Origin: a virus
Virus record (IMG/VR): IMGVR_UViG_3300010883_011583
Span: 1-20,396 of that record
DNA: 20,396 nucleotides
Reading direction: 5' to 3' (one strand)
In this document: piece by piece, positions 4,743 to 19,667 of the stretch
How positions within the stretch are numbered: position 1 is the stretch's first letter
Layout of the letters: each line of letters opens with the position of its first letter
Program-made: the position numbers and the translations under genes
Notes under the pieces: generated by a model
Database searches by the model: none
Seen by the model: only the letters and a program-made list of their open reading frames with translations
What the model was told of the DNA's origin: nothing

Positions 4743-4747
4743 AACAC

Positions 4748-4755
4748 TATTTATC
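4748..4755 (-). promoter_or_regulatory. T4-type late promoter for the gp14-lysozyme-gp15 operon
   Basis: GATAAATA on the minus strand, then GTGTT, then the ATG of gp14. With the T4 late box occupying -13 to -6, transcription would begin at the A of ATG (4742). Confidence 0.75.
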
Positions 4756-4784
4756 AGAACTTACGGCAACTGAATTTAGTATCG

Positions 4785-4792
4785 AATAAATA
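4785..4792 (+). promoter_or_regulatory. T4-type late promoter for methyltransferase-epimerase pair
   Basis: AATAAATA, then CAACT, then the ATG at 4798. It has the same spacing as the divergent gp14 promoter 29 bases away, and predicts a leaderless transcript. The first base departs from the more common G or T. Confidence 0.6.
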
Positions 4793-4797
4793 CAACT

Positions 4798-5367
4798 ATG
4801 AACAGAGAATCCTTGCTACAAACACTTAAAGAACAATTAGGCAATGTAAACATTGCAGTTGAAGTAGGCGTTTGGCGGGGAGATTATAGTAGATCTATAA
4901 TTAAAAACCTCCAGCCTAGCGTCTTTTACGGTGTAGATCCGTATGAAATATATGAAGGCTATACTGACAAACCAAATGTAATAGAGTTCCAAGATCAAGC
5001 AAACTTAGACAAATTACATGCTAGAGTTACAAAAACTTTCAATACTTTTAACAACAAATTAGGTCATACTAATAGCATTTTAGTAAGAGAATTGGGCACC
5101 AACTATGCATCTCAGCACCCTGATCAATCGCTAGACTTTGTTTATTTAGATAGCGATCACAAATATCAATCTGTTAAATCTGAGATAGAAGCATGGTATC
5201 CAAAAGTTAAAGTTGGCGGTATACTAGCAGGGCATGATTATATTGAGCGTAGCCACATTGAGGAGTTTGGTGTTATACAGGCAGTAACAGAATTTATCGA
5301 GCAAGAAAACTTAACATTACACACTACAGACGAGCAGTTTGCTACTTGGTGGGTAACTAAAACATAG
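4798..5367 (+). CDS. Class I SAM-dependent methyltransferase (Methyltransf_24-like)
   Basis: Transfers a methyl group from S-adenosylmethionine to an unknown acceptor. The Rossmann SAM site begins with VEVGVWRGDYS (21-31), followed by an acidic strand end in GVDPY, then DFVYLDSDHKYQSVKSEIEAW and a KVGGILAGHDY strand. The DSDH and GGILAGHDY motifs are typical of the Methyltransf_24 family, often found in glycan and cell-surface biosynthesis. 189 residues is normal for the family, with no membrane segment. It shares a transcript with the epimerase seven bases downstream, supporting a sugar-linked acceptor. It is not part of the T4 core set, so it is an accessory gene placed between the neck genes gp14 and gp13. 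The alternative acceptors (protein, small molecule) cannot be excluded. Confidence 0.85.
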   Translation: MNRESLLQTLKEQLGNVNIAVEVGVWRGDYSRSIIKNLQPSVFYGVDPYEIYEGYTDKPNVIEFQDQANLDKLHARVTKTFNTFNNKLGHTNSILVRELGTNYASQHPDQSLDFVYLDSDHKYQSVKSEIEAWYPKVKVGGILAGHDYIERSHIEEFGVIQAVTEFIEQENLTLHTTDEQFATWWVTKT

Positions 5368-5374
5368 GACACAT

Positions 5375-6331
5375 ATGAAAATTTTTATAACAGGACACGA
5401 CGGATTTATTGGATCACACATGGTTGAACGTTTAAAAAATGACCATGAATTAGGATTTCTTGCATACGATTTAAGAGATCATTCACAAGTAAAAGCACAA
5501 CTTGTAGAATTTAGTCCCGATATTATTGTGCATTTAGCGGCAAGAACAGAGGTAGAAGACAGTTTCTATGAACAAATAGTTTTCTCAGAAGTAAACTATG
5601 TAGGCACTGTAAACTTAATTGAAGCCGCGGCCACACTCCCTAATTTAAAGAATTTTGTGTTTGCAAGCACCATGGAAGTATATGGCTGGCAACCAATCAG
5701 CGATGTTATTAAGAGAGGCGGCGAAGTGCCAGAGGATATTTTTGCCTTTGATGAAGATACTCAACCCAATCCTAATGCCCCTTATGCCGTTGCAAAATAT
5801 GGTTGTGAAAAATACCTAGAGTATGCAAACAGAAGTTTAGGATTACCGTTTACTGCTATTAGGCAAACTAATGCATACGGTAGAAAAGACAATAATTTCT
5901 TTGTAACAGAGCAAATTATTTGGCAAATGCTAGATAATCCAGAAGAAATATTCTTAGGCTACGGCAAACCATATCGTAACTTTATCTTTATTGAGGACTT
6001 ACTTGATGCATGGGAAGCCGTTATTAGAAACCCTGAGAAATGTGCAGGCGAAATATTTTGTCTAGGACCTGACAATGCAATTAGGATCTCAGACTATGTG
6101 GATCTCATTGCAAAAAAACTTGATTGGAAAGGAAAAGTACATTGGGATAAGAAGCCTGAGAGACCTGGCGAGATATTCATATTGAATAGTTCTAATGCAA
6201 AAATTACTGAAAAGTTAGGTTGGGAACCAAAAGTTTCCTTGGATGAAGGTGTTGAACGTACAGTTGCTATTTGGAAGGATATTCATGGCAAAAACACCAA
6301 ATTTAAGAATATTACCAATATAATCACGTAA
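5375..6331 (+). CDS. NAD(P)-dependent nucleotide-sugar epimerase/dehydratase (extended SDR)
   Basis: Extended short-chain dehydrogenase of the UDP-glucose 4-epimerase / GDP-mannose dehydratase class, which alters sugar stereochemistry or removes water from NDP-sugars. Seen: the NAD motif TGHDGFIG (6-13), an acidic residue in YDLRD (31-35), HLAARTEV (53-60), catalytic Ser/Thr in FASTMEVYG (96-104) and the YxxxK pair Tyr137/Lys141 in PYAVAKYGCEKY. Later come the substrate-side RQTNAYG and the FIFIEDLLDAW region. 318 residues is full length. An AGGA lies five bases before the ATG. It is paired with the methyltransferase, and together they could make or modify a sugar for phage structures or the host surface. 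Which NDP-sugar it uses is unknown. Confidence 0.9.
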   Translation: MKIFITGHDGFIGSHMVERLKNDHELGFLAYDLRDHSQVKAQLVEFSPDIIVHLAARTEVEDSFYEQIVFSEVNYVGTVNLIEAAATLPNLKNFVFASTMEVYGWQPISDVIKRGGEVPEDIFAFDEDTQPNPNAPYAVAKYGCEKYLEYANRSLGLPFTAIRQTNAYGRKDNNFFVTEQIIWQMLDNPEEIFLGYGKPYRNFIFIEDLLDAWEAVIRNPEKCAGEIFCLGPDNAIRISDYVDLIAKKLDWKGKVHWDKKPERPGEIFILNSSNAKITEKLGWEPKVSLDEGVERTVAIWKDIHGKNTKFKNITNIIT

Positions 6332-17982: not shown

Positions 17983-17994
17983 ATCCCAATACGA

Positions 17995-18002
17995 TATAAA
18001 TA
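17995..18002 (+). promoter_or_regulatory. T4-type late promoter for large terminase
   Basis: TATAAATA, then CTAGC, predicted start A at 18008. The 13-base leader holds GGAG seven bases before the gp17 ATG at 18021. The predicted start is itself an ATG opening a six-codon ORF (MEQLHA). Confidence 0.75.
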
Positions 18003-18020
18003 CTAGCATGGAGCAATTAC

Positions 18021-19631
18021 ATGCCTAGAGGAACCGCGGATACCAGTCTGGTAAAACCAGCTAATCAGATATTCGATTACGACGAAAAAACCATATTAGA
18101 ATTCCAGCAATGCTGTGATGATGTTAACGGTGCATTGTACTTCATGGAAAATTTCATGAGAATACAGCATCCTGTACATGGACAAATGCAATTTGATCCA
18201 TATGACTACCAGCTAGATCTTATTAAAAACTACAACCAATACAGATACAGTATTAACATGTTGGGCAGACAGATGGGTAAAACCACTGTAGCCGCAGGAT
18301 ACTTACTTTGGTATGCAATGTTTAAACCTGATAGTACAATACTAGTTGCGGCTCACAAGGCGGCAGGCGCAAGTGAAATTATGCAACGTATTAGATTTGC
18401 ATACGAAAGTACCCCAGACCATATTAGAGCTGGTGTAATGGAATACAATAAAAGTAGTATCACATTTGATAATGGTAGTAGGATAGTTAGTAGTACAACA
18501 ACCGAAACTACTGGGCGTGGTATGTCCTTAACACTAGTTTACTTAGACGAGTTTGCATTTGTTAGGAATACAATAGCAAAAGAGTTTTGGACTTCACTGA
18601 GTCCTACACTAGCAACAGGTGGTAAGTGTATTGTTACTAGTACACCAAACAGTGACGATGATACTTTTGCTACTATTTGGGCAAACTCTTTAAATATATT
18701 TGATGAATATGGTAATGCAACACCAGATGGTACAGGTAAGAATGGTTTTAAAGGCTACAAAGCTAAATGGGACCAACATCCTGACAGAGATAATGCATGG
18801 GCAAATCAAGAGCGTAACAGCATAGGCGAAGAACGATTTAGGCGTGAGCACGAATGTGAATTTGTTATATACGACGAAACCCTTATTAATTCTTTAAAAT
18901 TAATTGACATGTCAGGCATAGAACCAATTAGAACAATGGGACAAGTACGTTGGTACAAACATCCGCATCCTACATGCACTTATGTAATAGGGTTAGATCC
19001 ATCAACTGGCACAGGCGGCGATGCCGCCGGCATACAAGTAATCGAATTGCCTACAATGGTGCAGGTTGCTGAATGGCAACACAACATGACGCCTATAGAA
19101 GGGCAAATGAAAGTAATGATGGATATTATGCAATATCTAACAGAGCTACAAGTTGAACAAATCTACTGGAGTGTTGAGAACAATAGTATTGGCGAAGCCG
19201 CATTACTAGTAATCAGGGATACTGGAGAAGAAAGTTTCCCAGGAGATTTCTTACATGAACCTAAAAAAGTATCAGGCAGGCGAGCAAGAAAAGGTTTTAC
19301 CACAGGACATCGAACTAAAGTCGAAGCATGTTTAAGTGCAAAACGGTTAATAGAACAAGATAAATTAATAATTAACAGTAAACCGTTGTTATCTGAACTT
19401 AAAAACTTTGTTGCTAAAGGTAATAGTTTTAGTGCTAAACCTGGCGAACATGATGACTTAGTTATGTCTATGATGCTTTGCATAAGAATGATACATTACA
19501 TTAGTACATTTGAAGACGAAGTATTTGAAGCTGTTAATAGTACGTTAGCAAATCCAAATGATTACGGTGATTATGATCGTGAATGGGATGACCAAGATGA
19601 TGACGGTCCTATGCCTTTGGGTATTCTTTAA
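18021..19631 (+). CDS. 17: Terminase large subunit, T4 gp17-like
   Basis: The ATP-driven packaging motor and headful nuclease. Walker A is LGRQMGKTT (81-89, compare T4 SRQLGKTT), Walker B is TLVYLDE with Asp176/Glu177, and the coupling segment VTSTPN is at 205-210. The C-terminal RNase H-like nuclease domain has its acidic residues in GLDPSTG (Asp326), [10 protein letters not shown] (Glu386) and EHDDLVMS (Asp478/479). At 536 residues it is somewhat shorter than T4 gp17 (610), lacking mainly N-terminal sequence. A clean GGAG supports the ATG at 18021. It directly follows the acidic unknown pair and precedes another late unit. Confidence 0.97.
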
Positions 19632-19636
19632 TATTT

Positions 19637-19644
19637 GATAAATA
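19637..19644 (+). promoter_or_regulatory. T4-type late promoter for the 3'-end gene
   Basis: GATAAATA, then GTATT, predicted start G at 19650. The 18-base leader carries AAAGGAG before the ATG at 19668. Confidence 0.7.
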
Positions 19645-19667
19645 GTATTGATAAAGGAGTATTCTAA

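Follow-up and report, generated by a model that had tools for sequence, protein, structure and literature searches.

Do the late messages of a T4-like phage carry an untranslated leader as a rule, or can the late promoter be placed so that transcription begins at the start codon itself? The question is raised by a 20,396-base virus fragment (IMG/VR record IMGVR_UViG_3300010883_011583), hereafter called the window. In phage T4, the first base of the 8-bp late promoter box lies at -13 (PMC2988020, in excerpt), and therefore +1 falls five bases beyond ATAAATA, the last seven bases of the box. An initial annotation of the window described ten such boxes in front of genes, and all ten are located as it described. 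The base five past the box is A in nine and G in one (position 19650). At four boxes this base is exactly the A of the start ATG of an open reading frame (ORF) of 161-351 amino acids (aa), namely those of a gp14-like protein, a methyltransferase-like protein, gp13, and a 161-aa protein, and at the remaining six the predicted leaders are 13-56 nt long and bear Shine-Dalgarno (SD)-like sequences, both as annotated. From sequence comparison across relatives, we consider it very probable that gp55-type late promoters in these phages make leaderless mRNAs beside a leadered class.

The four starts indeed have no SD sequence, as had been remarked, and this is not independent evidence because -12 to -6, the region in which an SD would be expected, is taken up by the box. 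The spacing itself is more telling. ATAAATA alone is mildly enriched in the window, with 17 copies on both strands against a mean of 9.6 (sd 3.1) in 100 dinucleotide shuffles, 3 of which reach 17. When ATAAATA is paired with the ATG of an ORF of at least 60 aa, four pairs have a spacing of 5 and none has a spacing of 0-4 or 6-12. In a control of 20 permuted heptamers at 13 spacings (0-12), 248 of the 260 cells score 0, 12 score 1, and none scores higher. The initial annotation had remarked that the box would occur a few times by chance, though not at a fixed distance; the signal in the window is the spacing of box and ATG rather than the number of boxes. The other seven copies of ATAAATA (2090+, 3776-, 4408+, 4552+, 9081-, 15485+, and 20369-) have no ATG of an ORF of at least 60 aa within 60 bases downstream.

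Spacing in related phages

In what follows, d is the number of bases between ATAAATA and ATG; d=5 puts the start of the heptamer 12 bases before the start codon. Eighty IMG/VR relatives were found with TerL, and relatives of gp13 and gp14 were added later, giving a collection that is centred on few genes and redundant. In the first set, the 80 redundant TerL-found loci, 194 of 463 box-ATG pairs lie at d=5, where 20 permuted heptamers score 0-9. Removal of near-duplicates left a jumbo-type set of 204 sources (201 related IMG/VR loci, the window, and two long contigs, G001 and G003), in which 124 of 462 pairs lie at d=5, 24 at d=6, and 4 at d=4, with no further distance up to 30 exceeding 14. 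The distances d=7-15 sum to 15 and a broad leadered class begins at about d=16, so few genes fall between the leaderless and leadered classes. A pelagiphage set of 81 sources gives 35 pairs at d=5, 4 at d=6, and 7 at d=8. Six permuted heptamers score 0-6 at d=5 in the jumbo-type set and 0-3 in the pelagiphage set. Permuted heptamers do peak at other spacings (AATAAAT with 62 at d=6 in the 80-locus set; TAAATAA with 25 and 12 at d=4 and ATATAAA with 12 at d=7 in the deduplicated sets), and most of these peaks arise from the real box in a register shifted by one or two bases; the 13 cases of AATAATA at d=2 are unexplained by overlap with the real box. An SD of at least 4 bases precedes 2 of 92 deduplicated d=5 starts and one of at least 3 bases precedes 7 of 92, an absence that is partly forced by the box.

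The initial annotation had named loss of this distance in relatives as grounds for refutation; the distance is in fact kept at the homologous starts of several families and is found again in a distant lineage. The ortholog counts that follow are raw and redundant and do not represent independent events; rows set aside as truncated number 5 for gp14, 3 for the HTVC008M tube cap, 2 for the 161-aa protein, and 3 for TerL. The neck gene gp13 has d=5 in 79 of 80 orthologs, with the homologous first methionine (M1) aligned in 75 of the 79; at the exception (locus L225) the A at +1 is kept, but a longer stretch with GGAG precedes the ATG. Among 41 orthologs of the gp14-like gene, 34 of the 36 assessable ones have d=5, all with M1 aligned (34/34), one has d=4, and one is leadered. 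The 161-aa protein has d=5 in 53 of 60 orthologs, all 53 with the start aligned, while 3 have no box and 2 have no ATG in reach. These 53 starts show 17 different spacers, and it is therefore the spacing that has been kept, more than DNA that has been copied. For the methyltransferase no ortholog was found in the loci searched, and its d=5 start is known from the window alone.

Other families are leadered throughout, in counts that draw on loci of one TerL-centred search together with G001 and G003 and leave out orthologs matching only after residue 40 or without a start codon in reach. An SD-bearing leader is found in 42 of 42 orthologs of the sheath gene (PA5oct included; 26 of 41 examined upstream regions distinct), 55 of 55 of the tube gene (PA5oct and Atu_ph07 included; 24 of 53 distinct), 68 of 68 of the gene at 16613 (PA5oct and Atu_ph07 included; 30 of 66 distinct), and 8 of 8 of the gene for the 114-residue protein.

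The distant lineage is represented by Pelagibacter phage HTVC008M, a cultured phage whose host is the marine bacterium SAR11. Its nine d=5 ATGs are all RefSeq CDS starts and belong to gp010, gp014 (CsgF), gp020 (tape measure), gp025 (DNA end protector), gp027 (tail tube cap), gp053 (baseplate wedge), gp063, gp092, and gp190. Together with the aligned M1 residues, these RefSeq starts support the view that the ATG is the real start codon of the d=5 genes. In the same phage, the sheath, portal, and protease genes have a box and an SD-bearing leader, the capsid and tube genes have an SD and no box within 90 bases, and the neck gene (59714) has a box at d=8, with a predicted leader of 3 nt. Among 80 relatives of the tube cap, 58 have d=5 (48 at the homologous M1), 6 are leadered, and 13 have no ATG in reach; none of the 6 leadered or 13 unplaced rows exceeds about 35% identity, and at that level of identity one row has d=5. 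The trait may have been gained separately in HTVC008M and in the jumbo group, or kept by both. The uncultured jumbo-type contigs are presumably marine, judging from sample numbers. We also observed a variant box, CTAAATA, at d=5 of the HTVC008M tail completion gene (75830); CTAAATA has 3 d=5 cases in this phage and none at d=2-4 or 6-11.

How far the signature extends was assessed in 18 whole records with the bare pattern ATAAATAN5ATG and its backward form as control (in brackets). The long contigs G001 and G003 contain 19 (3) and 27 (0) matches, and shorter relatives contain 16 (3) in G002, which repeat those of G001, 10 (0) in G004, 9 (0) in G005, 5 (2) in G006, 5 (0) in G007, and 7 (0) in G008. 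Counts in the remaining records are 9 (1) in HTVC008M, 2 (0) in T4, 2 (1) in S-PM2, 3 (3) in P-SSM2, 5 (2) in Atu_ph07, 8 (4) in PA5oct, 1 (2) in 121Q, 2 (2) in XbC2, and 0 (0) in both Vibrio 2.275.O and Phosso; for 121Q, XbC2, Vibrio 2.275.O, and Phosso these are bare-pattern counts without an ORF filter. With an ORF of at least 60 aa required, d=5 starts number 17 in G001, 25 in G003, 9 in HTVC008M, 2 in PA5oct, 1 each in S-PM2 and P-SSM2, and 0 in T4 and in Atu_ph07 (400 of 490 kb). The apparent signature of PA5oct and Atu_ph07 in the bare pattern was rejected on this basis, as the filter leaves only 2 and 0. T4, PA5oct, S-PM2, P-SSM2, and Atu_ph07 all have leadered boxes.

Transcription start and rival explanations

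In the explanation that we favour, the host's RNA polymerase, equipped with a gp55-like sigma factor from the phage, would read T4-type late promoters, with the box NATAAATA at -13 to -6 and a predicted start at the A five bases past it. In one class, this +1 would be the A of the start AUG, yielding a leaderless mRNA that would be initiated by the AUG-at-5'-end (70S) route. In the other, the same promoter and the same +1 would be followed by a leader, mostly of at least 11 nt, that carries an SD. The class of promoter would set output, with neck, packaging, and baseplate parts often leaderless and sheath, tube, and capsid SD-led. The genes are taken to be late from gene type.

Sequence evidence for the start site that is independent of the ATG comes from the leadered promoters, defined as having no ORF of at least 60 aa starting at d=5 or 6, in which offsets 0-11 past the box were compared. 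A pyrimidine-purine step at offsets 4/5, the predicted -1/+1, is present in 75% of 224 jumbo promoters (next best offset, 51%) and in 71% of 28 pelagiphage promoters (next, 43%). The base at offset 5 is a purine in 182 of the 224, and it was A in 71% of the 165 promoters of the first deduplicated set. Along with the T4 numbering (PMC2988020, in excerpt), this step supports the +1 assignment of the initial annotation. A gp55-type late sigma factor was found as phrog_12791 in G001 (2.0e-94) and G003 (5.0e-93) and as phrog_234 in HTVC008M (3.5e-66), in a search that covered contigs G001-G006 and HTVC008M. Predicted structure in the first 40 nt is weaker in leaderless than in leadered ORFs, at -2.30 versus -3.34 kcal/mol in the jumbo group (p 0.0003) and -1.90 versus -3.48 kcal/mol in pelagiphages (p 0.008), as would be expected if the ribosome loads there.

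Several observations weigh against this explanation. The 24 deduplicated cases at d=6 exceed those at most other distances, the pelagiphage set has its 7 cases at d=8, so that +1 may wobble or short leaders may exist, and the gp14-like gene has d=7 in both long contigs. The initiator step is weak in leadered T4 promoters (38% of 26, next 35%). No member of the gp55 family was found in partial contigs G002 and G004-G006. As for its partners, gp33 (phrog_254) was found in HTVC008M and T4 and not in G001, G003, PA5oct, 121Q, or Atu_ph07, being a short protein that may have diverged, and the gp45 clamp (phrog_223) was found in HTVC008M and T4 and not in G001, G002, G003, PA5oct, or 121Q. Leaderless and leadered ORFs are different sets of genes, which alone could cause the difference in structure. 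Phage ribosomal protein S21, considered as a helper, was rejected: it is encoded by HTVC008M and G001, absent in G003, and also present in PA5oct, Atu_ph07, Vibrio 2.275.O, and Phosso, where the signature is absent or nearly so, and no correlation emerges. A habit of the host fared no better. TATAATN6ATG and its reversed form occur 38 versus 35, 41 versus 36, and 31 versus 27 times in three SAR11 genomes, a sample that does not contain HTVC008M's own host strain, with no clear excess, and a distance profile over 400 kb of one of these genomes has no sigma70-type leaderless peak; host habit is therefore no obvious explanation. A difference in promoter strength read from the first base of the box was likewise set aside. 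This base is G in 68 of 122 leaderless and 162 of 224 leadered cases of the jumbo group (p 0.003), and the trend is reversed in pelagiphages (8 of 37 versus 1 of 28, p 0.07).

The d=6, d=7, and d=8 cases, as well as the broad initiator signal of T4, would fit real promoters at which transcription begins one to four bases away from the predicted site, so that the messages have very short leaders and are not truly leaderless. We think this unlikely, as d=5 is far sharper than its neighbours in the jumbo-type set (124 versus 4 at d=4 and 24 at d=6) and matches the initiator step of the leadered promoters. In addition, a pyrimidine directly precedes the A of the ATG at five of the six G001 starts with d=6 (loci L096-L112), as if +1 had moved with the ATG, and the d=6 class is perhaps a one-base wobble of +1. 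A different possibility is that these genes are read from longer upstream transcripts with SD-free initiation, the box lying nearby because the genomes are compact. Co-directional upstream neighbours do exist: across the window, G001, G003, and HTVC008M, 40 of the 55 genes concerned have one, often within 40 nt. However, compact genomes predict no fixed spacing, permuted heptamers have no d=5 peak, and 15 of the 55 genes are divergent by mechanical ORF calling (3 of the neighbours being judged spurious ORFs). The divergent cases include HTVC008M gp025, with 26 bp between divergent starts, and the gp14-like and methyltransferase genes of the window, whose boxes diverge within a 55-bp gap without a co-directional neighbour. 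This possibility appears decidedly improbable.

A/U-rich sites precede some SD-free starts, and ATAAATA beside the ATG could in principle be such a translation element, a ribosome or S1 site, instead of a promoter. Nevertheless, leadered genes with an SD have this box too, at varying distances and with the initiator step unchanged, permuted A/T heptamers are unused at d=5, and the box matches the late promoter of T4 and S-PM2. Of the explanations weighed, we give this one almost no credence.

Leader state of individual genes

The gene at 19668 is leadered in the window, and among 78 orthologs it is leaderless (d=5) in 55 and leadered in 23. A quick tree requires at least six changes of state, at least three of them forced by well-supported branches, and genes therefore appear to switch leader state now and then. 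TerL is mixed as well: of 80 orthologs, 46 have d=5, 7 have d=6, 8 are leadered, and 16 are without a box. In the window, TerL starts at 18021 behind GGAG. The initial annotation's count of four boxes with an ATG at +1 holds for gene starts, but at the TerL box, too, +1 falls on an ATG, one that lies out of the TerL frame and opens a 5'-terminal ORF of six codons (Table 1). This layout is shared by 7 of the 8 leadered TerL loci (the exception is L018).

It had been proposed that leaderless starts serve low-copy proteins and leadered starts high-copy ones. Judged from gene identities only, the proposal fits part of the data, as every sheath and tube ortholog is leadered, an SD precedes the major capsid gene in all three genomes checked, and the neck and 161-aa proteins are nearly always leaderless. 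It does not fit TerL and the gene at 19668, which switch among relatives, or the two terminase genes of HTVC008M, which have no box. A more speculative idea, which we regard as possible and rather doubtful, is that presence of a leader forms a second layer of control, with one sigma factor and one promoter but two modes of translation entry; these would determine the ratios of products and might respond differently as ribosomes and initiation factors change late in infection. The trait would then have arisen or been lost more than once, and a gene could be switched by a short indel between +1 and ATG.

The window is a T4-like tail and packaging cluster comprising neck (phrog_211), dNMP kinase, sheath, tube, head closure, and TerL genes and a tail sheath / sheath-stabilizer family protein. 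Within the phage collection, its TerL is nearest to PA5oct-like jumbo phages (57.7% identity to PA5oct), and PA5oct has the same order of neck, dNMP kinase, sheath, tube, head closure, and TerL with other genes interspersed. Regarding gene names, the initial 'gp14' and 'gp16' were derived from position and size; the small-terminase identity of the 161-aa protein is presumptive.

Table 1. Late promoter boxes and predicted products in the window
Feature	Coordinates	Strand	Remarks
Late box GATAAATA of gp14-like gene	4748..4755	-	Spacer GTGTT; +1 = A of ATG 4742
Virion structural protein (initially gp14), predicted leaderless	3687..4742	-	phrog_11591, E 2.4e-90
Late box AATAAATA of methyltransferase	4785..4792	+	+1 = A of ATG 4798; divergent from gp14 box
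Methyltransferase-like protein, predicted leaderless	4798..5367	+	phrog_2675, E 9.7e-26
Late box GATAAATA of gp13	7599..7606	+	Spacer GTGTT; +1 = A of ATG 7612
gp13, head-tail adaptor / neck protein, predicted leaderless	7612..8373	+	phrog_211, E 2.3e-27
Late box of tail sheath gene, leadered	9148..9155	+	36-nt leader with SD
Late box of tail tube gene, leadered	12108..12115	+	56-nt leader
Late box TATAAATA of 161-aa protein	15638..15645	+	Spacer GTAGT; +1 = A of ATG 15651
161-aa protein upstream of TerL (initially gp16, small terminase), predicted leaderless	15651..16136	+	phrog_16202, unknown function
Late box of 114-residue protein, leadered	16128..16135	+	39-nt leader
Late box of gene at 16613, leadered	16582..16589	+	18-nt leader
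Late box of TerL	17995..18002	+	Heptamer 17996-18002; +1 = out-of-frame ATG 18008
5'-terminal 6-codon ORF (MEQLHA stop)	18008..18028	+	Overlaps TerL SD; stop ends at eighth base of TerL
Late box of gene at 19668	19637..19644	+	Leadered in window, leaderless in most relatives

Some further features of the window were observed. A minus-strand box at 9081-9088 lies just beyond the dNMP kinase gene and is oriented back into it, which may point to an antisense late RNA or be due to chance. Another minus-strand box (3776-3783) lies within the gp14-like gene, 98 bases before the start of a lysozyme-like gene (3677), whose orthologs are preceded by leadered boxes, at 29 bases in G001 and 13 in T4. An incomplete ORF at 90-785 resembles the C-terminal portion of a G003 protein of 689 aa (34%, E 1e-37; phrog_35576), itself of the leaderless type, and also resembles HTVC008M gp019, annotated as an adenylate/guanylyl cyclase (35%, E 7e-28).

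Comparison with known systems

T4-type late promoters and leaderless mRNAs are both known, but the literature that we found contains no description of a whole class of late phage genes predicted to lack leaders by way of a single promoter spacing. No paper on leaderless late promoters in T4-like phages was found among titles and abstract openings, a search outside which preprints and most subscription papers lie, and the word leaderless does not occur in the excerpted text of a review on late transcription in T4. Phage transcripts are said in passing to be often leaderless (PMC5312081, in excerpt), and a survey of pelagimyophages describes prediction of middle and late promoters as unsuccessful (PMC7029224, in excerpt). 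The d=5 spacing may serve as a marker for late promoters in phages where such prediction had failed, and it may also help the annotation of start codons. If the favoured explanation is true, these messages begin directly with AUG and need another route into protein synthesis. HTVC008M on HTCC1062 offers a cultured pair for a direct test, and the occurrence of the same orthologous gene in both states amounts to a natural experiment on the purpose of a leader.

The closest known system is that of T4, whose late promoters (TATAAATA, read with gp55, gp33, and gp45) share with those described here the box, its predicted position at -13 to -6, a gp55-type sigma factor, and late structural genes. T4 differs in having no box-ATG pair (ORF of at least 60 aa) at 0-11 bases, whereas more than a quarter of the pairs in the jumbo-type set (124 of 462) lie at exactly five. 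Most boxes begin with G in the jumbo group and with T in T4 and the pelagiphage set. The late promoter NATAAATA of cyanophage S-PM2 (PMC2984593, in excerpt) is the same degenerate box as here, but S-PM2 and P-SSM2 each have a single d=5 start with an ORF of at least 60 aa.

The TerL promoter of the window, with an ATG at +1, an SD, and the real start 13 nt on, is reminiscent of Escherichia coli mRNAs that have a 5'-terminal AUG and a downstream SD, for which most tested upstream ORFs supported some translation (PMC4965119, in excerpt). It is unlike them in belonging to a phage gene and in that the putative six-codon upstream ORF ends within the first eight bases of TerL. Finally, leaderless mRNAs such as lambda cI (PMC4965119 and PMC9031893, in excerpt) have in common with the d=5 genes a 5'-terminal AUG and the absence of an SD. 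Unlike lambda cI, which is a single gene, the leaderless messages predicted here would form a class that extends over many late genes and is tied to one type of phage promoter.

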